Virus record (IMG/VR): IMGVR_UViG_3300022707_004719
Coordinates: 1-34,804 of that record
DNA length: 34,804 bases
Direction: 5' to 3' (one strand)
Source of the DNA: a virus
Shown here: positions 4,441-34,464 of the stretch, piece after piece
Layout of the letters: every line of letters begins with the position of its first letter
Numbering within the stretch: the stretch's first letter is position 1
Notes under the pieces: model-generated
What the model saw: only the letters and a program-made list of their open reading frames with translations
The model's database searches: none
What the model was told of the DNA's origin: nothing
Position numbers and translations under genes: made by a program

Positions 4441-4566
4441 TTACTTTGAATCTTTGTATTGAAGCCTCATCTTTTCTTTTTCACAACTACTTACCGTCAC
4501 AAGAAAAGTTACTGCGACAATAGCTACACAAATAAAAAGAACACTCGTTTCATTATCTAATTTCAT
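4441..4566 (-). CDS. Small membrane or lipid-anchored protein
   Basis: This 41-residue ORF starts at ATG 4564-4566, overlapping the RecT stop as TAATG. It has one hydrophobic segment (about residues 9-25) followed by VSSC, a possible lipobox with Cys28, then a charged tail. The N-terminus is polar, so a single-span anchor is as likely as a lipoprotein. The coupling to recT supports translation. Function unknown. Confidence 0.5.
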   Translation of the reverse strand: MKLDNETSVLFICVAIVAVTFLVTVSSCEKEKMRLQYKDSK

Positions 4567-5534
4567 TATTTATCCTCAAAGTTTTCTAGGTTATCGAAAT
4601 AAAACTTGCAAGCATTTAAAATATTAATATAAGTTTCTTTACTTCCTTTGAAAGTTCCTTTTCTCATTTTATTTGCAGTAACAATGCAATAACTTTTTAA
4701 TGTTGTGAGCTCTATTTCTTCTAATCTTTTTCCACGATAAGTCCCATGTTGAATTAAAAACCTAGGACCGAATTCAATATCCTCTTTAGATTGAGGAAAA
4801 TCTGTATCTAAATCTTCTTTAGATATTGAAAAATCAGGTATATCTTCTTTAGCAAAGTCAATACCTTCATGCTCATTAATTACATTAATTCCTTTTAATA
4901 ATCTTGGACTGGCCTTAGGCCACATTTTTGCGGCTCTCTTGACAACAGTTTTCTTGACCATTTCTTCAAAGTCTGTTTTCCAGGGACCAGATTGATTTTT
5001 CTTCCATGCTTCAGATCGATCTCGAATATCTAAAACTGCATTAATTGTCATAGTAGTTGTCAGATAATCTCCGGATAACAATTTCGCAACACAATAAACT
5101 CCATCAATTTTTCCACGATCTTTGAACGCATCACGTTTATGCTCTGGCATGGTACCCGGACTATTCATTATGAAATTATCTAATTCATAAACTAAATCTG
5201 CCTGCACCCATTCAACTGCAGCACTTTGCACAGCTAAATGGATTAACCCCATATAACTGATATCCAGGCAAATCTGTCCTTTCCTCGGTAAAAGATAGGC
5301 ATGTTTACTTGAAGGGCTTAGAGACAATCCTATAGCAGCTACATTAATGATTGCCATCTTCAAACTATCTGGATTACTGAACGCAATATTTGCTAAATAA
5401 TTATTACTCTTTAATATCTGCATCGCAAAACTTGCTTCAGCCTTGAAATTTACTGCGCCATGAATTAATGCGAGCTCTTTAAAAGATTTTTCTTGTGATA
5501 GGATTATTTCATTCGTCTTTACGAGCGCATTCAT
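4566..5534 (-). CDS. recT: RecT single-strand annealing protein with C-terminal ExoX-like domain
   Basis: This 322-residue protein starts at ATG 5532-5534 after GAGGAG with a spacing of seven; upstream in-frame starts lack such a site. The RecT core spans about residues 25-235. It has the SLSPSSKHAYLLPRKGQICL and ISYMGLIHLA segments typical of the family, which anneals complementary single strands in phage recombination. Residues about 255-322 form an added domain with HGTYRGKRLEEI, resembling the ExoX-like C-terminal module (a FGkykGk pattern). No partner RecE-type exonuclease is visible in the window. The NinB-like gene follows downstream. Confidence 0.9.
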   Translation of the reverse strand: MNALVKTNEIILSQEKSFKELALIHGAVNFKAEASFAMQILKSNNYLANIAFSNPDSLKMAIINVAAIGLSLSPSSKHAYLLPRKGQICLDISYMGLIHLAVQSAAVEWVQADLVYELDNFIMNSPGTMPEHKRDAFKDRGKIDGVYCVAKLLSGDYLTTTMTINAVLDIRDRSEAWKKNQSGPWKTDFEEMVKKTVVKRAAKMWPKASPRLLKGINVINEHEGIDFAKEDIPDFSISKEDLDTDFPQSKEDIEFGPRFLIQHGTYRGKRLEEIELTTLKSYCIVTANKMRKGTFKGSKETYINILNACKFYFDNLENFEDK

Positions 5535-5622
5535 TATCGTTCTCCTCATTTTGTTCAAAATGTTCTACATCGTAGTCTAGATCGATGTATGTATCACAGA
5601 CATGGCAATATTCAATAGACAT
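5509..5622 (-). CDS. Very small Cys-containing acidic protein
   Basis: This 37-residue ORF overlaps the gene at 5612-5824 by 11 bases and runs 26 bases into recT. It has Cys6 and Cys9 as a CHVC knuckle and Cys32, and is very acidic. Its coding sequence contains the ribosome binding site of recT, so translation here could influence recT expression. Its own ribosome binding site is weak (AAGAAAA). Confidence 0.45.
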   Translation of the reverse strand: MSIEYCHVCDTYIDLDYDVEHFEQNEENDNECARKDE

Positions 5623-5824
5623 TTTTTTTCTTTTTCAAAAGTTCTTCTACTGTCAATATAGGCAAAACAATTCCCCATAAAGGAACAATTAATATGCATC
5701 CAATTACTACTTGCTCTGGGTTGGATATTTTAAAACCACCATTTAATCCTGTAGTAATCAAACCAACAATAACTATTAAAATACCTATACCAAAATAAAT
5801 TAAAATCCAATAATCTGATATCAT
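5612..5824 (-). CDS. Two-span membrane protein
   Basis: This 70-residue protein has two hydrophobic helices (about residues 5-25 and 38-58) separated by a short polar loop, then a lysine-rich tail. The topology is holin-like, but it sits in the early operon and not in the lysis cassette, so a role in membrane modification or exclusion is equally possible. No family recognised. Confidence 0.6.
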   Translation of the reverse strand: MISDYWILIYFGIGILIVIVGLITTGLNGGFKISNPEQVVIGCILIVPLWGIVLPILTVEELLKKKKNVY

Positions 5825-5885
5825 TATTTATTCTTTTTGTTGTATTTATATCTTTGAATATATAAGCAAGTATCAAGTAGTATTT

Positions 5886-6260
5886 TTAGGATTGTGCGCA
5901 TTTTGGACCTACTAATAATGATGGTGGTAATTCATGATCAGTATCTACTCTTTTCCATAGATGCAAACAATAAGGATGACAATTAACATATTCACTTTTC
6001 TTAGGATGAAATTGTAATACAGTTACATCTTCTCCAAAAAACAAATTTTTAATCTTATTCATTTCAGGCCAATTAGGACATCTGTTATCAAGACTAACTG
6101 ATACATGATCCCATTCCATTTCTCCAAGTGGAGAACAAATAACTCTTAAATAAAGAGAGCTCTTTATAGGAGAAGGAATCATAAACGCACCAAAGTTAGC
6201 ACCTTTTTTAGTTGCCCATTGTCCAACAGTACATCTATGCTTTTCTATTTCTTCATTCAT
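5886..6260 (-). CDS. DUF7694-like conserved phage protein
   Basis: This 124-residue protein starts at ATG 6258-6260, eight bases after GGAGGG and overlapping the previous stop as ATGA. A longer frame from 6296 has no comparable site. The segment WDHVSVSLDNRCPNWPEMNK, then a LFFGED motif and a C-terminal YCLHLWKR, is the signature I recall for the DUF7694 group of phage proteins. Its role is not established. Confidence 0.7.
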   Translation of the reverse strand: MNEEIEKHRCTVGQWATKKGANFGAFMIPSPIKSSLYLRVICSPLGEMEWDHVSVSLDNRCPNWPEMNKIKNLFFGEDVTVLQFHPKKSEYVNCHPYCLHLWKRVDTDHELPPSLLVGPKCAQS

Positions 6261-6433
6261 TTTTCTTCCCTCCATTCCCATTCCCATGGCCAACACAATT
6301 CTTCTGAGCCATCAGTAGTAAAAACAATCCTTATTTGCATAAATAAAATCATTATAAAATAGAATGGGAAAAATGGGATCCCAACTATAAATCTAATCAG
6401 ATTATAAAAGAACCAATGCAATCTCCAATTCAT
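6257..6433 (-). CDS. Small membrane protein rich in aromatics
   Basis: This 58-residue ORF is coupled as ATGA at both ends (6430-6433 and 6257-6260). It has a long hydrophobic and aromatic segment (about residues 7-37), followed by a Trp/Glu tail (WPWEWEW). The double coupling strongly supports translation. No family recognised. Confidence 0.6.
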   Translation of the reverse strand: MNWRLHWFFYNLIRFIVGIPFFPFYFIMILFMQIRIVFTTDGSEELCWPWEWEWREEK

Positions 6434-18547: not shown

Positions 18548-18978
18548 TTTTTTACTTCCTCCACTCCTTCTGCTGGAAGGATTTCAATACCAGTAATGAT
18601 TTTTCCTGTTGCTGCGTTTTTTGGTTTGTCACAGAATTCATTAAAAAATGACCACAAGATCTCAGCTACTTTAGCTTTGATCTTCATATTAAAGAAATCA
18701 TTTACACATTCATCAGTTAATGCTTCTTTTTTCTCATCTTCAAATGAAAGCTCATATTTCTCACCATTTGGTAAATCAAATCCTTCGATTTCCTTGATAG
18801 AATACTTGAAAAGCTTTTTACCTTTAACAAAGATATCTTCTTTTAATGTTCCATCTTCTTTTATTGAACCATCCTGGATCTCTAATCTTTGACCTTCATT
18901 CAATGGGGACACCTTGATTATGGCATCCCCAATTTTGATCGGTATTCTGTGAGACGTTTTGTAAACGACAATTGACAT
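18544..18978 (-). CDS. Tail assembly chaperone, G-like
   Basis: This 144-residue protein starts in a TAATG overlap with the tail tube stop. The first half is beta-rich and the second half is helical with an acidic character. It ends in a slippery A AAA AAG followed by TAG. Position between tail tube and tape measure, and the frameshift site, identify it as the shorter chaperone that coats the tape measure before tube assembly. Confidence 0.8.
   Translation of the reverse strand: MSIVVYKTSHRIPIKIGDAIIKVSPLNEGQRLEIQDGSIKEDGTLKEDIFVKGKKLFKYSIKEIEGFDLPNGEKYELSFEDEKKEALTDECVNDFFNMKIKAKVAEILWSFFNEFCDKPKNAATGKIITGIEILPAEGVEEVKK
18547..18553 (-). promoter_or_regulatory. Programmed -1 ribosomal frameshift site A AAA AAG
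   Basis: The last sense codons of the G-like gene read GTA AAA AAG TAG, giving the classical slippery heptamer A AAA AAG in the correct frame, immediately before the stop. After a -1 slip the frame stays open into the T-like extension. A 5-bp stem, TAGCC pairing with GGCTA about 22 bases later, could be a stimulator just downstream. Confidence 0.85.
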
Positions 18979-20489
18979 TAAGAAACTCCTATAAATATTT
19001 CATCTGAAGTGCCATCAGTCCCTCGGTTAGCACTAAATGAAAGATTTTCGACGAGGATCCCATCCGTGTCGCCGACTACTTTTTCAACTAAAATACAATT
19101 TGGTAGAAAAATTCCAAAATTGGTACCTAGATCAAATTCACCACTTACAGCACTGTCATTACCACCGGTGAGAAGGAGGGTAAATGGTGTGTTGTTATTA
19201 AATTTAGTAAATTGATCTACTAAAGTATCATCCTTAAAAGGATTAAATGATCCAGAAATAGCTCTTGAGGAAATCCTTGAGCTAATACGCCCATCAGCTG
19301 ATTTGACAGAAGTCAATGGACTTACAGTATTTTCTACACTTAAAGCAAATTCGTTAATATCTAGACAAGTAGTATCTTGGAAAAATGCTGTACCTAGAAT
19401 TAATGGAGGTAACTTAGTATCAAAAGTGGGACTAAAAGGAGCAGCGCCATCAATTTCATCGAAACTTAAAGCTTCTTCAGAAAAGGTCAGTGCAGAAATC
19501 TGGCCAGTAGTATAATTATCCAGACTTAAAGATGCGCCTCTTGTTCCAATTATCTGTTCTCTAATTTCATTTGCCCAATATACAGATTTTGTATATGTTG
19601 CATGATTTTCATTAGCAGGAAAATATGTAACAGACTTACTTAACACAACTGAGTCAGACGGAGCGCCTGCAGTAGGAGCAGGAGAATAACTTATATCCCC
19701 AGCATTAACCGCTGTGACAAATGCCCTATGATGAGCACCTGATTCTAGGATTACAAAGAAATCTCCAATAGTGAAGATATCTGATGCATTGGCTATATTC
19801 AAAGAAGTTGTTGAATGAGCTGATCCAGTTGTAATTCTATTTCTAAGCCTTCTCCTATTGCCAAATACTGCTCGCATCGGGATATCCCATTGTGGAATAC
19901 CACCTTCGAGTCCTTGCCCTCTAAACTCAACTGGAAGTGTTCCAGCTGCTGATTTAACAGAGACTCTAGGCTGTATTTTTCCAATACTAGATGTAAGAAT
20001 AGTTCTTTCAACTAATTCTTTGGCCGGACTATTTTCTAATCCATCTTCTAATACTTGTACAAAGTCTGTAGCAGATTGAGGAGCTTTTGCAACACCTTCA
20101 GTAAAAACACCGGTTGCAAGAGTTACAAAATCAACTATAGTCATATTATCAGTACCACCAACATTTCCTTCAGCTAGTGTTAATGAATTCCCTGGTGTTC
20201 CTGGAATATCTGCTGTGATTGTGACTGTGTCTGTAACAGCTACAGCGGATAAGACCCCTGACAATAACTTATCGTTACTATCATTAATTGCTGCAGCAAT
20301 ATTTGTTGCAGTAGTGTTTATACCTGATCCTGTAATAAAATCTACACCTTCAGTAAATGTAACACCGTTTACAATTAATGTTTCAGCTCCATCAAATGCA
20401 TCGTTAATAACTTGAACAGTTGCGGTTGCAGCAACAGCCTCTTCGGCGATACCAACAACCGTTTCTCCTTTTACAATTCCTATTGCCAT
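18978..20489 (-). CDS. Major tail tube protein with an inserted N-terminal domain
   Basis: This 503-residue beta-rich protein is directly upstream of the tail chaperones, where the tail tube gene is expected. Around residues 25-130 it carries an extra module with VNGVTFTEG, NTTATNIAAAINDS and GTPGNSLTL. I recall this domain from many phage structural proteins, where it decorates the surface. The rest has the Thr/Ser/Asn-rich composition of tube subunits. Confidence 0.7.
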   Translation of the reverse strand: MAIGIVKGETVVGIAEEAVAATATVQVINDAFDGAETLIVNGVTFTEGVDFITGSGINTTATNIAAAINDSNDKLLSGVLSAVAVTDTVTITADIPGTPGNSLTLAEGNVGGTDNMTIVDFVTLATGVFTEGVAKAPQSATDFVQVLEDGLENSPAKELVERTILTSSIGKIQPRVSVKSAAGTLPVEFRGQGLEGGIPQWDIPMRAVFGNRRRLRNRITTGSAHSTTSLNIANASDIFTIGDFFVILESGAHHRAFVTAVNAGDISYSPAPTAGAPSDSVVLSKSVTYFPANENHATYTKSVYWANEIREQIIGTRGASLSLDNYTTGQISALTFSEEALSFDEIDGAAPFSPTFDTKLPPLILGTAFFQDTTCLDINEFALSVENTVSPLTSVKSADGRISSRISSRAISGSFNPFKDDTLVDQFTKFNNNTPFTLLLTGGNDSAVSGEFDLGTNFGIFLPNCILVEKVVGDTDGILVENLSFSANRGTDGTSDEIFIGVS

Positions 20490-22204: not shown

Positions 22205-22834
22205 CTATGTTGGTTCGATTAACAGCCAGTTGATTATACTCGTATCTAGCGCATTAGTTGAATTTATCGTGAAACTTGTAGATACCACTCGGGTTGTTGC
22301 CAAGAACCCCTGAGTTCCCCCTGCTGTGTTAACAGATAAAAATATTCTAGTGTTAGCTGTTATTGAAGTATTAGATACAGTAATGGTTCCTGCTACAAGA
22401 GTATCTTGTCCCATTCTGCCATTAGTTCCTTCTTTTATTTTTACCCCGACCCCTATGGTCTCAGTAATAAGATCTCCGTTTGGCCCAATTGCCGACAAAG
22501 CTGTTCCAGTCGAATCTCTCCACTCCTCTATATTTCTTGTTTGTGTTGAATTTGCATTTATTGAGAATTGAGCTTGGTTTGAAACACCAATTAGTTCTAA
22601 TCTTGACGTGGGGTTATTTATCCCTATTCCAATTTTTCCATCACTTCTAATTACTAGTCTAACTATCCCGTTTGTTATACATGAGATATTTCCATTAAGA
22701 CTATCTATATATGTATCATCATCATCTTCAAAAACAATGCCTTTGCAAGCAAGATAATCTTGAGTGGGGTCAGTTTCAGTAGGACCGAAATCAACCCCTG
22801 TTTCTATCTTTAAAGGCTTAACCTTATCAATCAT
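22205..22834 (-). CDS. Head or tail fibre-like decoration protein
   Basis: This 209-residue protein has a short N-terminal KVKPLKIETG segment, then beta-helix-like repeats, including SDGKIGIGINNPTSRLELIG and STGTALSAIGPNGDL. I know these from trimeric fibre and spike proteins. The N-terminus resembles that of the next gene, which suggests that both attach to the same virion site. It is Asn/Thr-rich with no catalytic motif. Confidence 0.6.
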   Translation of the reverse strand: MIDKVKPLKIETGVDFGPTETDPTQDYLACKGIVFEDDDDTYIDSLNGNISCITNGIVRLVIRSDGKIGIGINNPTSRLELIGVSNQAQFSINANSTQTRNIEEWRDSTGTALSAIGPNGDLITETIGVGVKIKEGTNGRMGQDTLVAGTITVSNTSITANTRIFLSVNTAGGTQGFLATTRVVSTSFTINSTNALDTSIINWLLIEPT

Positions 22835-24864: not shown

Positions 24865-24889
24865 AATTAAAAAGGGGGCCTAAGCCCCC
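24865..24889 (-). terminator. Intrinsic terminator inside the structural operon
   Basis: A GC-only 6-bp stem GGGGGC/GCCCCC (24874-24889) is followed on the minus strand by TTTTTAATT. It closes the capsid and signal-peptide gene transcript. Confidence 0.85.
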
Positions 24890-24896
24890 GTCCTCG

Positions 24897-25370
24897 TTAT
24901 TCTAAGACTGAAAAATCAATAAAGAATCTAACCTTCCCTGCAGTAGCACTGCCTGCTACCACCAGATCTATTGTATCTGCTGAGCTATAGAATCTATACA
25001 AAGTAGATGTACCGCTGTTAGTGGTATCTACTGAATAAACTCCTATATCTGATGATTCATTACTCAACGGTGTAAGTCCTGTTGAATTCATAAATGCATC
25101 CAATAAATATCCATTGTCATCATCACCATCACCAACTATTTCAGAAGTTGATCCTGCGACTACTGTTTCTACATTTGCGCTAACACCGTAAATTACAGCA
25201 CCAGCAGGAATACTAAAAATTGCAATAGTACCAGATGATGCAGTACTGTCAGCACTGGCACCGGATGTCACATCCCAAAGAAATTCTTGTGTTAATCGTT
25301 CGAATTTTTGAAAGCCTGCGCTAGCTGTTAATGAAAACAGCATTACAAGCATAATGGTTAAAAATTTCAT
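24897..25370 (-). CDS. Signal-peptide protein next to the major capsid gene
   Basis: This 157-residue protein has a clear Sec signal peptide: Met-Lys, a hydrophobic core (residues 4-14), and ASA at 16-18 before Gly19. The mature part is Ser/Thr/Gly-rich and beta-rich with an acidic GDGDDD stretch. It is isolated between two hairpins, downstream of the capsid gene. Export of a protein made with the capsid at high level is unusual. It could act at the cell surface or outside, for example in blocking adsorption. That is inference only. Confidence 0.7.
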   Translation of the reverse strand: MKFLTIMLVMLFSLTASAGFQKFERLTQEFLWDVTSGASADSTASSGTIAIFSIPAGAVIYGVSANVETVVAGSTSEIVGDGDDDNGYLLDAFMNSTGLTPLSNESSDIGVYSVDTTNSGTSTLYRFYSSADTIDLVVAGSATAGKVRFFIDFSVLE

Positions 25371-25384
25371 CTCTCTAATCTCCT

Positions 25385-25406
25385 ATTTAAGGGGACCGAA
25401 GTCCCC
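25385..25406 (-). terminator. UUCG-loop hairpin after the major capsid gene
   Basis: On the minus strand GGGGAC-TTCG-GTCCCC (25391-25406) forms a very stable hairpin with a C(UUCG)G loop, followed by TTAAAT. The U run is weak, so it may be a partial terminator that reduces downstream expression, or a 3' stabiliser of the abundant capsid mRNA. Confidence 0.5.
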
Positions 25407-25435: not shown

Positions 25436-26299
25436 TTATGGATTATCAGTTCCAATTAATACGGCTCTCTTCCCGGTATCAAGTTCTTTTGTTCCGTAAA
25501 GCTGATCAATTGAATATCTAGTACCAAGGTTCCTTAGATCCTTTTGTGAATCAAAATCTGGCCCTATTTGAGTAGCATATCCAGCTGCACTTGGATGAAA
25601 CATCAATGATTTAAGATTATTGATGTCATTGTGAACAAAAACTCTTACACCAAAAACTCTTCCAATCTCACCAGTTGCTATTGGCGCTCCAACACCATAT
25701 TTAGAAGCATCGATGAAATTAGCAATCTTTAACATTATCTCTTCTTGTTCAGGAGAAATTGCCAAAGCAAGACTTTTCATCATTGAGGCACTTAGCTTTT
25801 GTTGGCGTAAAAGCCTACGAGCTTTCAAGATGTCCGCTTCAGTTATCTCGGTACCACCGCCGCCAGTATAAACAAAACTATGATCTGGGGAAGATGCAAC
25901 ATTTTCTAAGATAGCAATGATATCTTTATCCACCTGATTAGCGATGTCTTGGCCGGCTCTTAATATTGCTTCATTAAGAACAGCAACTACTGATTGTTCT
26001 GATGCAATTTTCTCAATAATCCATTGAATGACCTTGTGCTTATTGAGATTCAAAACATCAGTGCTAAAAACTATTGTTTGAGCATCTACTGCAGCATTTT
26101 CAGCCTTATCATCGACTGATGAAAATCCCGGTGCTCTAGGAATCTCGACTTGCTTTGATCCTTTAACTGCCAAAGCTGAAAAGTTCATTACATTCGGAAT
26201 CATTACTGCTTCTTCCTGTAAATATATTTGCACCTGGGCACTGATTGCATCTAAAGCTGTTGCAACAGTGGTGGTGACTCCCATTAATGAATCTGCCAT
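25436..26299 (-). CDS. Major capsid protein
   Basis: This 287-residue protein, directly downstream of the scaffold gene, has features of HK97-fold capsid proteins. These are an N-terminal arm, an E-loop-like EIPRAPGFSSVDDKAENAAVD, a long spine-helix-like segment (ASEQSVVAVLNEAILRAGQD), and a C-terminal domain with GRVFGVRVFVHNDI and a terminal strand. No N-terminal prohead protease target is obvious. The call rests on position and these patterns. Confidence 0.8.
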   Translation of the reverse strand: MADSLMGVTTTVATALDAISAQVQIYLQEEAVMIPNVMNFSALAVKGSKQVEIPRAPGFSSVDDKAENAAVDAQTIVFSTDVLNLNKHKVIQWIIEKIASEQSVVAVLNEAILRAGQDIANQVDKDIIAILENVASSPDHSFVYTGGGGTEITEADILKARRLLRQQKLSASMMKSLALAISPEQEEIMLKIANFIDASKYGVGAPIATGEIGRVFGVRVFVHNDINNLKSLMFHPSAAGYATQIGPDFDSQKDLRNLGTRYSIDQLYGTKELDTGKRAVLIGTDNP

Positions 26300-26312: not shown

Positions 26313-26936
26313 TTACGCCTCTTCAGGTTGAAAAGGCTTATGTTGTTTAACTAAAAAATTTATTGCAGAAGCATACTTGTCTGCTTGAGTTGGCCCTTTA
26401 TCTGCAATGTGTTGAGGTCGAGTATTAACAGTGTTAACAGTTTCTTTTGATTGAAACATATATGCTTTATCTTCCATGACCTTTGCTACAGCTTCCTTTA
26501 CACCATTAACTTTTCCCGATTCTTCATCAATAGTAATCATTTCTAATGGTAACGCTGCTACTACATCTTTTAAATCGTGAGCATTGTGTGCATAACGAGA
26601 TACTTCAATTTCAAGATCTTTTTGTAATTCTCTTTTAGATCTTTCTTTAAGTGTTTCATTAAGTTTGAATACATTGTTTTTTTCAATTGCAAGTAACTCT
26701 TCTGTTTTACCCTCGTCCTCTAATTTCTTCTTTGACTTAGCATCAACATTATCTCTTAATTCACGGAACTTATCAGCGTTGTCCTTCGACTCAGTTAACA
26801 ATCTCGCATTAGTTGATTTCTGTTGTACTAACTGATCCAATATCTTTTGGTGTTCACTAGCAGATATTGGTTCAGATTTTGACTGAGAGCCTTCGCTTCC
26901 AGTTTTGGAACCTTCGTCCCCTTTCTTTTCGGCCAT
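26313..26936 (-). CDS. Capsid scaffold protein
   Basis: This 207-residue protein, starting at ATG 26934-26936 after TAGGAG, is highly charged and mostly helical. It has a low-complexity Ser/Gly/Lys N-terminus, a coiled coil (about residues 35-115) and a basic C-terminus. This is typical for phage scaffolds, which lie just before the capsid gene. A longer frame from 26966 lacks a good ribosome binding site. Confidence 0.75.
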   Translation of the reverse strand: MAEKKGDEGSKTGSEGSQSKSEPISASEHQKILDQLVQQKSTNARLLTESKDNADKFRELRDNVDAKSKKKLEDEGKTEELLAIEKNNVFKLNETLKERSKRELQKDLEIEVSRYAHNAHDLKDVVAALPLEMITIDEESGKVNGVKEAVAKVMEDKAYMFQSKETVNTVNTRPQHIADKGPTQADKYASAINFLVKQHKPFQPEEA

Positions 26937-26946
26937 TCTTTTTCTC

Positions 26947-27396
26947 CTACCTGTTTTGTCTCGCAACTTCTTGTGAGACTATTGTTTCAATTGACTTATT
27001 GATTCTATTTTGTATTGACTTGGTAAATTCTTCTCCACTTCTGTCAGGTAACAATCTTCTAATAATTCGATTTACCCCTGCTCCGGACGTGTTGTGATAA
27101 AACGCAATGATATCTGAAAACTTAATATCAACTGAGCTAGGTCCTGCTGTTGAAACTCTCAATGATTCAAGCATTTCGCCTGTTCTTGTCATGTCTACAG
27201 GTTGGACTCTTCCTTTAATCTTTGCATACTCACGAGAATAGCCCTTAAATCTTTTCCCTGTAACCGGAGATGTTCCGGATGTAATGGTTTTAATAATCTG
27301 ATCAGCAATATTTGATTTAGCTTTTGTTAAAAACTTTTTATTAATATTAGGAAGAAACTTGTTTAATGTAGATTTAATAGTAATTCTAACGGCCAT
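26947..27396 (-). CDS. Neck or tail-completion protein, gp10-like (copy 2)
   Basis: This 149-residue protein contains SPVTGKRFKGYSREYAKIKG and then a TGEMLESLRV segment. This is the pattern of HK97 gp10/phage virion morphogenesis proteins that close the connector. The gene upstream has the same ordered motifs, so these are tandem paralogues. The start overlaps the upstream stop as TAATG. Confidence 0.6.
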   Translation of the reverse strand: MAVRITIKSTLNKFLPNINKKFLTKAKSNIADQIIKTITSGTSPVTGKRFKGYSREYAKIKGRVQPVDMTRTGEMLESLRVSTAGPSSVDIKFSDIIAFYHNTSGAGVNRIIRRLLPDRSGEEFTKSIQNRINKSIETIVSQEVARQNR

Positions 27397-29413: not shown

Positions 29414-30691
29414 TTAAGTAAACCTTATTTTTGCCTTCATTATTGGTTTGATTCCGTGAGTATGATGTCCGAGATATCCACCAGCATCTGAAATATGGCC
29501 CCGGGACTTATCGGTAGTATCTGGCATATTTGTTCCTTCGATGTATTTGTGTTGCTCGTAGTCGGCGATAGTCTTTTTACACTTATAATCTATCAAGTAG
29601 TTCCCTTTTTCAAATAAATTATTCATCGAATTGTATCTGTCAACTCGAAAAGGGTTGTGAGAATAGATTACGTTAAATCCTGCGTCACGTAAAATCTGGT
29701 GATTTGTTGTGGAAGAAACGGGATTTCTATTCTTACCCGTTGAGTCAGGAACTATTGTTATTGAGCTAGGATTGATATTTGGGAAACGATTTTTGATTTC
29801 AACACATATTGCCGGAGTATTACTATTTGGTAACCAGATCTCATCAAACTGTCTTAATTGCGTACTTGTTACATTGTTGAGAGTTGCAGTCATGGGATTA
29901 ACGTTAAAGTCCATACCAATATGAATTGGTAAATTAAGATCTCTTTCGACTCGAGTAACATTCTTTTCTCTGCTAAAGGCATAGTAAATTAATCCTTCAC
30001 CTAGGTCAGAGAAGATCCCATCACGAAATCTCATTCTTTGTTGTTCAGGCATTTCATCTAAAATATCAGCAATATAATCAGGATCAATGTTCTCGAGATT
30101 ATGAATTGGGTTCATTAATAGGTGAGCATATTTACTTGGATCCTTAAGCTCTTCCCATGTCTCAGGGTTTTTCTTTTGAATAAATAACGGGTATGACCAA
30201 TGACTTCTATGAGGAGGGTTTTGATCAAAGTAAGCCTTGTTAACTAAATCATTCTTCTCAGCTAACCGACTTAAGGCAATAAGGATTGAGGTATAATCTA
30301 ATTGTGAACACTCATTGAAAAAAACAGTTGAATATTCATTACCTAGAATCTTTTCAGTACGTTTCTTATCATCTAATCCAGCAAACCAGAATTCGGATCC
30401 ATTAGGGAATATAGCATAGTGGTCTGACATCTTCATTGTGACATCTAACTCTGGGAATGCTAGATCAAGAACCTTTGGAAATGTATCAAGCCATATAGAG
30501 GTTTTAATGTGATTGAAATTTCTTCTTATAGCAATATGACGAGACTTGACTTTACATGCTCTAATAATCATTGCTCTTAAAATGACAGCAGTCTTACCAC
30601 TCCTGGAACCGCCATAGAGCATAATGAACTTAGCAATAGATGCTAATAGTTTTGTAGCTTCGACTTGTCTTTCTGTTTTCTTAAAGCTCAT
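29414..30691 (-). CDS. terL: Terminase large subunit
   Basis: This 425-residue protein has an ATPase domain with Walker A GGSRSGKT (27-34) and Walker B TVFFNE (122-127), then an RNase-H-like nuclease domain with acidic residues in GMDFNVNP (Asp261), VPDSTG (Asp316) and HISDAGGYLGHH (Asp402). It packages DNA into proheads and cuts it. It overlaps the small gene upstream by 11 bases. Confidence 0.95.
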   Translation of the reverse strand: MSFKKTERQVEATKLLASIAKFIMLYGGSRSGKTAVILRAMIIRACKVKSRHIAIRRNFNHIKTSIWLDTFPKVLDLAFPELDVTMKMSDHYAIFPNGSEFWFAGLDDKKRTEKILGNEYSTVFFNECSQLDYTSILIALSRLAEKNDLVNKAYFDQNPPHRSHWSYPLFIQKKNPETWEELKDPSKYAHLLMNPIHNLENIDPDYIADILDEMPEQQRMRFRDGIFSDLGEGLIYYAFSREKNVTRVERDLNLPIHIGMDFNVNPMTATLNNVTSTQLRQFDEIWLPNSNTPAICVEIKNRFPNINPSSITIVPDSTGKNRNPVSSTTNHQILRDAGFNVIYSHNPFRVDRYNSMNNLFEKGNYLIDYKCKKTIADYEQHKYIEGTNMPDTTDKSRGHISDAGGYLGHHTHGIKPIMKAKIRFT

Positions 30692-34284: not shown

Positions 34285-34464
34285 TTAATTTATTCTTTCC
34301 CAACCACTTTCTGAAATACAATAACATTGCTGATCAATTCTTCTGCTTTTTAACATCTTACAAGATTTCGCACACTCATCTTTATCAATTGACAACTCAA
34401 CGGATCCCCACATTACAAATAACAAAACGCCTATAATAAGAATTCCCCAAAGAAAGTTTTTCAT
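34285..34464 (-). CDS. Small membrane-anchored protein with four cysteines
   Basis: This 59-residue ORF starts at ATG 34462-34464, two bases after the HNH stop. It has a membrane segment or signal anchor (about residues 4-20) and then a small outside-facing part with Cys32, Cys36, Cys48 and Cys50, which could form disulphides or bind metal. No family recognised. Confidence 0.55.
   Translation of the reverse strand: MKNFLWGILIIGVLLFVMWGSVELSIDKDECAKSCKMLKSRRIDQQCYCISESGWERIN

Follow-up and report, generated by a model that had tools for sequence, protein, structure and literature searches.

The locus described here raises the question of why a gene placed directly beside a major capsid gene should encode a protein with an N-terminus that resembles a Sec signal, given that textbook accounts place the head assembly of tailed phages in the cytoplasm. 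The gene lies in a virus record of 34.8 kb, the whole of which was analysed and is here called the window, and in which the head-and-tail module is on the minus strand. It is an ORF of 157 aa (24897..25370, minus strand) that starts with ATG and has the sequence AGGAG 9 bases upstream of this codon. A profile search found no further copy of its family in the window.

The gene stands 65 bases downstream of a gene for a Phage_capsid_4 major capsid protein (25436..26299, minus strand; PF25209, 1.8e-7, above the Pfam cut-off; PHROG 267, 9.9e-25), confirming the position directly after the capsid gene given in a preliminary description made from the sequence alone. The capsid protein gave weak tblastn matches to annotated major capsid or head proteins in four phage records, and no match when used as a probe in viral contigs. 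Upstream of the capsid gene is a scaffold-like gene (26313..26966, minus strand; PHROG 194, 1.1e-5; PF06810, 1.8e-6, below the Pfam cut-off). The preliminary description had also set the gene between a hairpin and a strong terminator, and both elements are present. The intrinsic terminator at its 3' side (24869..24889, minus strand) consists of a stem at 24889-24874 followed by a T run, and was recovered by the scan with a fold z of -3.3. The hairpin between the capsid gene and our gene (25391..25406, minus strand) has a 6-bp GC stem and a cUUCGg loop, GGGGAC-UUCG-GUCCCC, but folding of the surrounding 61 bases is no stronger than that of shuffled sequences (z -0.9), so that it does not stand out as a structure. 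Scans of the window for tRNAs and Rfam families found none. Judged from the place of the gene, late and abundant expression is plausible.

The predicted Sec signal peptide MKFLTIMLVMLFSLTASA comprises codons 1-18 (25317..25370, minus strand), with the cut before G19 and GFQKF as the predicted mature N-terminus. All features of a Sec signal are present: a K/R n-region (here the basic residue K2), a hydrophobic core at about residues 3-14, and small residues at -3 and -1 within T-A-S-A|G at residues 15-19. Signals were scored with a crude home-made signal-peptide rule and not with SignalP. The cement-like gene, as we call it for reasons given below, was the one ORF that passed this rule among 55 non-nested minus-strand ORFs of at least 60 aa in the window, and the signal with its ASA site claimed in the preliminary description was thus recovered. 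On the two strands of the window together, 234 ATG starts are followed by 40 open codons; 4 of these passed, including the start of this gene. By chance, the rule was passed by 65 of 5000 shuffled family N-termini and by 182 of 20000 codon shuffles of the gene itself. Taken alone, the signal therefore corresponds to a chance of about 1%, and the case rests on the relatives. A cytoplasmic form made from an internal start is unlikely for the window's gene, since there is no in-frame ATG, GTG or TTG between codons 10 and 34, and GTG 34 falls after the domain's first predicted strand; possible internal start codons do exist in other signal-bearing genes. From these features we infer that the window's protein would be exported and cleaved.

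The predicted mature domain (codons 19-157, 139 aa; 24900..25316, minus strand) has a mass of 14.5 kDa and a pI of 4.05, and carries the family signature IVGDGDDDNGYLL at residues 78-90 (25101..25139, minus strand), as seen in the family alignments. Searches with this single sequence were uninformative: neither the 50,697 phage records nor Pfam gave a match, the best PHROG match was to a membrane protein at an E of 0.28 and covered the signal, and the best PDB match was to a thioredoxin reductase at an E of 0.73, with no solved cement protein found. The family was therefore defined from matches in IMG/VR scans with the window's protein, its relatives and growing alignments, with GDGDD(P/D)NGY as the marker. 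Against the PDB, the resulting 25-row profile matched the cement (decoration) protein of Pam1 (7eel_H) at a modest E of 0.0025, followed by a 'structural protein' at 0.045, and one of the 25 rows matched PHROG 486, a virion structural protein, at 3.2e-5.

Structure prediction had been proposed in the preliminary description as a check. The AlphaFold2 model of the window's protein, built on the 25-row alignment, is of medium quality (pLDDT 72, pTM 0.71), and its mature part most closely resembles the Pam1, KHP30 and GP4 cement proteins. With VIA-align, the match to Pam1 7eel_H had a Z of 11.2 and an rmsd of 3.0 over 118 residues, those to KHP30, GP4 and KHP40 had Z values of 10.3, 9.4 and 9.2, and the remaining solved structures ranged from 7.5 down, apart from a tail protein of phage R4C (8gtc, Z 9.5) that ranked amid the cement proteins. 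Foldseek placed KHP30 first (7dn2, E 1.4e-4) and GP4 second. At an E of at most 0.001, 42 predicted viral proteins matched the model; most are unnamed, and they include a structural protein of Pseudomonas phage KPP25 as well as tail and fibre proteins. A model of the protein of the second signal-bearing lineage, designated L054 (pLDDT 69), had KHP30 (Z 9.8), Pam1 (9.7) and GP4 (9.5) as its top three matches, but it rests on the same 25 rows and is thus not independent. The matches of the window's model to cement proteins begin at about residue 14-20, and residue 17 of the model corresponds to residue 1 of the KHP30 chain, so that the signal appears as an add-on ahead of a nearly whole cement domain. 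In the model, a beta-sandwich fold of the Ig-like/jelly-roll cement type is predicted to span the whole mature protein. From the profile match and the predicted fold, we conclude that a capsid cement (decoration) protein is the most likely identity of the mature part. The preliminary description had considered an exported protein out of place beside the capsid gene; as the mature cement fold makes this place expected, only the signal remains odd.

The position beside a capsid gene is shared by the relatives of the window's protein. The capsid gene was checked by profile in 12 records (L002, L009, L014, L016, L019, L024, L034, L046, L050, L054, L056 and L058, the L numbers being our designations for related loci), and the family gene directly adjoins it in 11 of these, upstream in L009 and downstream in the other ten; in L050 the family gene is two genes away. 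One gene apparently lies between the two in L008 and L011, judged from position alone. A further profile search, of a set of 12 records that includes the seven signal-bearing ones, found two copies of the family in L002 and one copy in each of the seven signal-bearing records, so that no spare cytoplasmic cement protein of this family was seen in these partly fragmentary records. Duplicate contigs and identical proteins were left out of the 25-row alignment, as were L011, the second L002 copy, HMO-2011 and ctDrO704; the latter four have no signal-like N-terminus by eye, and the L011 protein has an extra N-terminal stretch. The phage collection yielded no isolate that carries a signal-bearing copy. 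Searched against phage records, the signal-bearing protein of L057 had no match and that of L050 matched only Bacillus phage G at a best E of 0.3. Prophage copies were sought twice in 84,980 species genomes, which gave 111 and 22 pattern matches but no relative. In L044 (1035-2900), the capsid gene is apparently split, and by eye a separate 232-aa ORF lies between the two parts, as if an element had been inserted.

The members of this GDGDD-(P/D)NGY family, known from environmental phage contigs, share the signature loop, the fold region and the place by the capsid gene with the window's protein, but 18 of the 25 rows are without a signal-like N-terminus according to the rule. The seven rows that pass are those of the window, L054, L055, L056, L057, L058 and L050. 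As L054 and L055 are near-copies, and likewise L057 and L058, rows are not to be equated with events; L056 and L057 are 54% and 48% identical to L054, and both carry signal-like segments. By eye, the cut sites are ASA in the window, CQG in L054 and L055, and of the CNG and AYA kind in L056 and L057, although the best-scoring site of the rule differs from the choice by eye in L054, L056 and L050. The hydrophobic segment of L050 could be a membrane anchor.

In a tree of the mature part, comprising 23 rows with L055 and L058 omitted as near-copies, the distribution of the signal requires three changes, at least two of which are forced by well-supported branches, and none of 200 bootstrap trees (0%) allowed a single change. 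A single clade of all signal-bearing rows was rejected (p-AU 0.0055), and constrained clades gave p-AU values of 0.030 for the window with the L054 type and 0.004 for L050 with the L054 type; as the groups were defined after inspection of the data and the branches are long, these values serve as guides. The signal-bearing genes adjoin or are near capsid genes of three families, namely PF25209 (window), PF17236 (L054, L056 and L058) and PF13252 (L050), and each of these families is also accompanied by signal-free relatives (L034 and L046, L002 and L016, and L009 and L014, respectively).

L054 and L055 offer a closer comparison. Their capsid genes are 98.9% identical and the mature parts of their cement genes 99.4% (3 of 534 bases changed), whereas identity falls to 41.6% in the spacer and to 61.9% in the signal segment, where the lengths differ by 6 bases. 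Both segments nevertheless read MKK-hydrophobic-CQG and are signal-like. Because the spacers of these two phages also vary elsewhere, from L054:6902 on, we claim no selection for the exchange of the signal, which may be passive, but only the existence of two signal-like versions. From the same position on, the inserted stretches differ between the two phages. The occurrence in three lineages, the rejection of a single origin and the two signal-like segments of L054 and L055 suggest that the Sec-type signal on this cement-like protein is recurrent and probably functional. For the first and last of these reasons, the non-functional decoy considered in the preliminary description is unlikely.

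Elsewhere in the structural module, too, there are genes with signal-like N-termini. In 23 related loci, the rule was passed by 10 of 157 non-nested ORFs of at least 120 aa. Three of these are the L050, L054 and L056 cement genes; L014 (3578-4264 and 5177-6070) and L046 contribute two genes each, L050 (8898-10064) and L058 (11748-12521) one each, and the tenth, L056:3867, appears to be spurious. The cement gene of L058 is not among these ten because its longest frame starts upstream. A further structural-module gene of L058 (10550-11746) has a signal-like N-terminus and fails the crude rule; its ORF starts with MEIPMKK. One of the two L046 genes (4491-5216, starting at ATG 4497 or TTG 4491) encodes an SU10-type head-tail adaptor (PF24175, 3e-19). 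The gene that follows (5226-6269) has a TTG start with AGGAG ahead; Shine-Dalgarno-like sequences precede both. The cement gene of L046 itself has no signal-like N-terminus, and the adaptors in the L050 and L014 records lack such a segment at their start. When relatives of the L046 adaptor were sought, the scan returned only its own contig.

The closest counterparts of the mature domain are the trimeric cement proteins of the cyanophage Pam1 (7EEL), the Helicobacter phages KHP30 and KHP40 (7DN2 and 7DOU) and the Ralstonia phage GP4 (gp1, 8H89), which have the same fold and length; for Pam1 there is also profile similarity to the window's family. These proteins are seen on capsids, and the window's protein differs from them by an 18-residue Sec-type signal in front. 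In the GP4 study, 180 trimers of gp1 are placed on the head, gp1 is traced from Ala2, and the N-terminal parts of the Pam1 and KHP30 proteins contact the capsid (PMC9698820). With gp1 traced from Ala2 there and KHP30 aligned from its residue 1, no cut signal is apparent in these proteins. In Puniceispirillum phage HMO-2011, the gene of the distant relative ADW08422 follows a putative coat gene, as in the window, but lacks a signal-like N-terminus and has GTDLDPNEF as its signature loop; it was found with the L009 protein (E 6e-5) and not with that of the window. Virion proteins made with a Sec signal are familiar from filamentous phages, whose coat proteins g8p and g3p are examples, but these phages assemble their virions at the membrane, whereas the phage of the window is tailed and carries capsid, scaffold and terminase genes of its own. 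Among the titles and abstract beginnings listed for openly accessible papers, there is no report of a tailed phage whose cement or capsid protein bears a signal peptide. The target proteins of phage DGRs are stated to lack signal peptides (PMC6199706), which counts mildly against a wide use of such signals.

Five observations support an exported cement protein: the signal-like N-terminus, the cement-like fold and family, the place by the capsid gene, the single copy, and the occurrence in three lineages. We tentatively propose, at somewhat less than even confidence, that the product of the window's gene is a phage head cement protein whose precursor carries a cleavable Sec signal and which decorates heads at lysis. 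Sec would move the precursor across the inner membrane, signal peptidase would cut it after ASA, at residue 18, and the acidic, mostly beta mature protein of 139 residues would accumulate beyond the cytoplasm. Heads would meanwhile be assembled and filled in the cytoplasm without cement, which export would withhold from them until the inner membrane fails. At lysis the compartments would mix, and trimers of the cement protein would attach to the mature shell at its three-fold and quasi-three-fold sites. Trimer formation, capsid binding and the timing at lysis are inferred as well. Cement proteins added to finished heads bind in vitro in the cases of gpD, Soc and Dec. It counts against the proposal that, to our knowledge, no exported cement protein is known for any tailed phage.

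Against this proposal also stands the presence of the same fold in the tail protein 8gtc and in predicted tail and fibre proteins. As a rival explanation, a cement fold may have been repurposed into an exported protein that stays off the head and acts in the envelope, as in superinfection, or as a lysis helper resembling XepA, and the signal peptide itself would fit such a role. XepA of Bacillus subtilis PBSX, the nearest precedent found, is an exported phage protein with jelly-roll-like domains, compared by its authors with the BPP-1 cement protein, that is located beyond the cytoplasmic membrane and is absent from particles (PMC6834076). It belongs to a lysis cassette, however, and forms a pentamer of two discs, whereas the window's protein is modelled as one 139-residue domain without the two linked beta-sandwich domains of XepA. 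The N-terminal contacts with the capsid in Pam1 and KHP30 mean that trading the arm for a signal could equally reflect lost capsid binding. Retention of the place by the capsid gene and the status as the sole copy found argue against a role off the head, as does the lack of a match to defence or lysis families at the limits used; no PADLOC, Pfam or NCBIfam model matched the protein, although absence from these libraries proves little. The block of superinfection or change of the envelope suggested in the preliminary description thus gained no specific support, including from PADLOC, and is kept as a rival. We consider a repurposed fold possible but on balance doubtful, and favour decoration of heads at lysis over it.

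Somewhat less probable still is a division of the protein into two pools. A weak or slow signal would leave one fraction to fold in the cytoplasm and decorate heads, its signal still attached or clipped, while the other fraction would be exported but have no role; alternatively, the segment would anchor heads at the inner membrane during assembly. In favour of this reading, the signal replaces the arm through which the N-termini of some other cement proteins contact the capsid, and the L046 adaptor, a protein expected to act on heads, has a signal-like N-terminus as well. On the other side, small-residue cut sites (ASA, AYA and CQG/CNG by eye) can be read in the signal-bearing lineages, and L046 is a single case with no adaptor relative beyond its own contig. 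A functionless hydrophobic N-terminus, a wrong start codon or an assembly error is very improbable: about 1% of shuffled N-termini do pass the rule, but the ATG is preceded by AGGAG, no usable later start lies near the cut site, and the same arrangement recurs in three lineages and in both near-identical phages despite their differing segments.

If the cement proteins of three lineages, accompanied by three capsid families, are indeed exported, either the outer layer of these virions is supplied from another compartment, or a cement protein has repeatedly been turned into an envelope protein. Some tailed phages might, more generally, finish their virions in two compartments, with the shell and its DNA put together in the cytoplasm and with cement and perhaps other outer parts stored through Sec beyond the inner membrane and added at lysis. 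Cement signals would then have been gained at least twice and probably three times, and the similar signals on structural genes of L046, L014, L050 and L058 would belong to the same scheme; we regard this wider proposal as speculative and rather unlikely. Exported cement proteins could be of use in capsid display.

Several other genes of the window were noted. Residues 6-242 of the large terminase (29414-30691, minus strand) are 46% identical to those of the Synechococcus phages Ssp-JY42 and Yong-M4-211, a match of 219 bits that is about twice the next one among the best 20 of 932; such identity over about 240 aa is insufficient for naming a host. A tail protein (18978-20489) had no match in phage records. 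The 209-aa protein encoded at 22205-22834 (minus strand) has a C-terminal K1-lyase_C domain (PF24146, 3.4e-22), a domain type familiar from tail spikes. Two short ORFs (4441-4566 and 34285-34464, both on the minus strand) have strongly hydrophobic N-termini by eye, which in the former includes a lipobox-like VSSC, and from their sequences may possibly encode lysis proteins.
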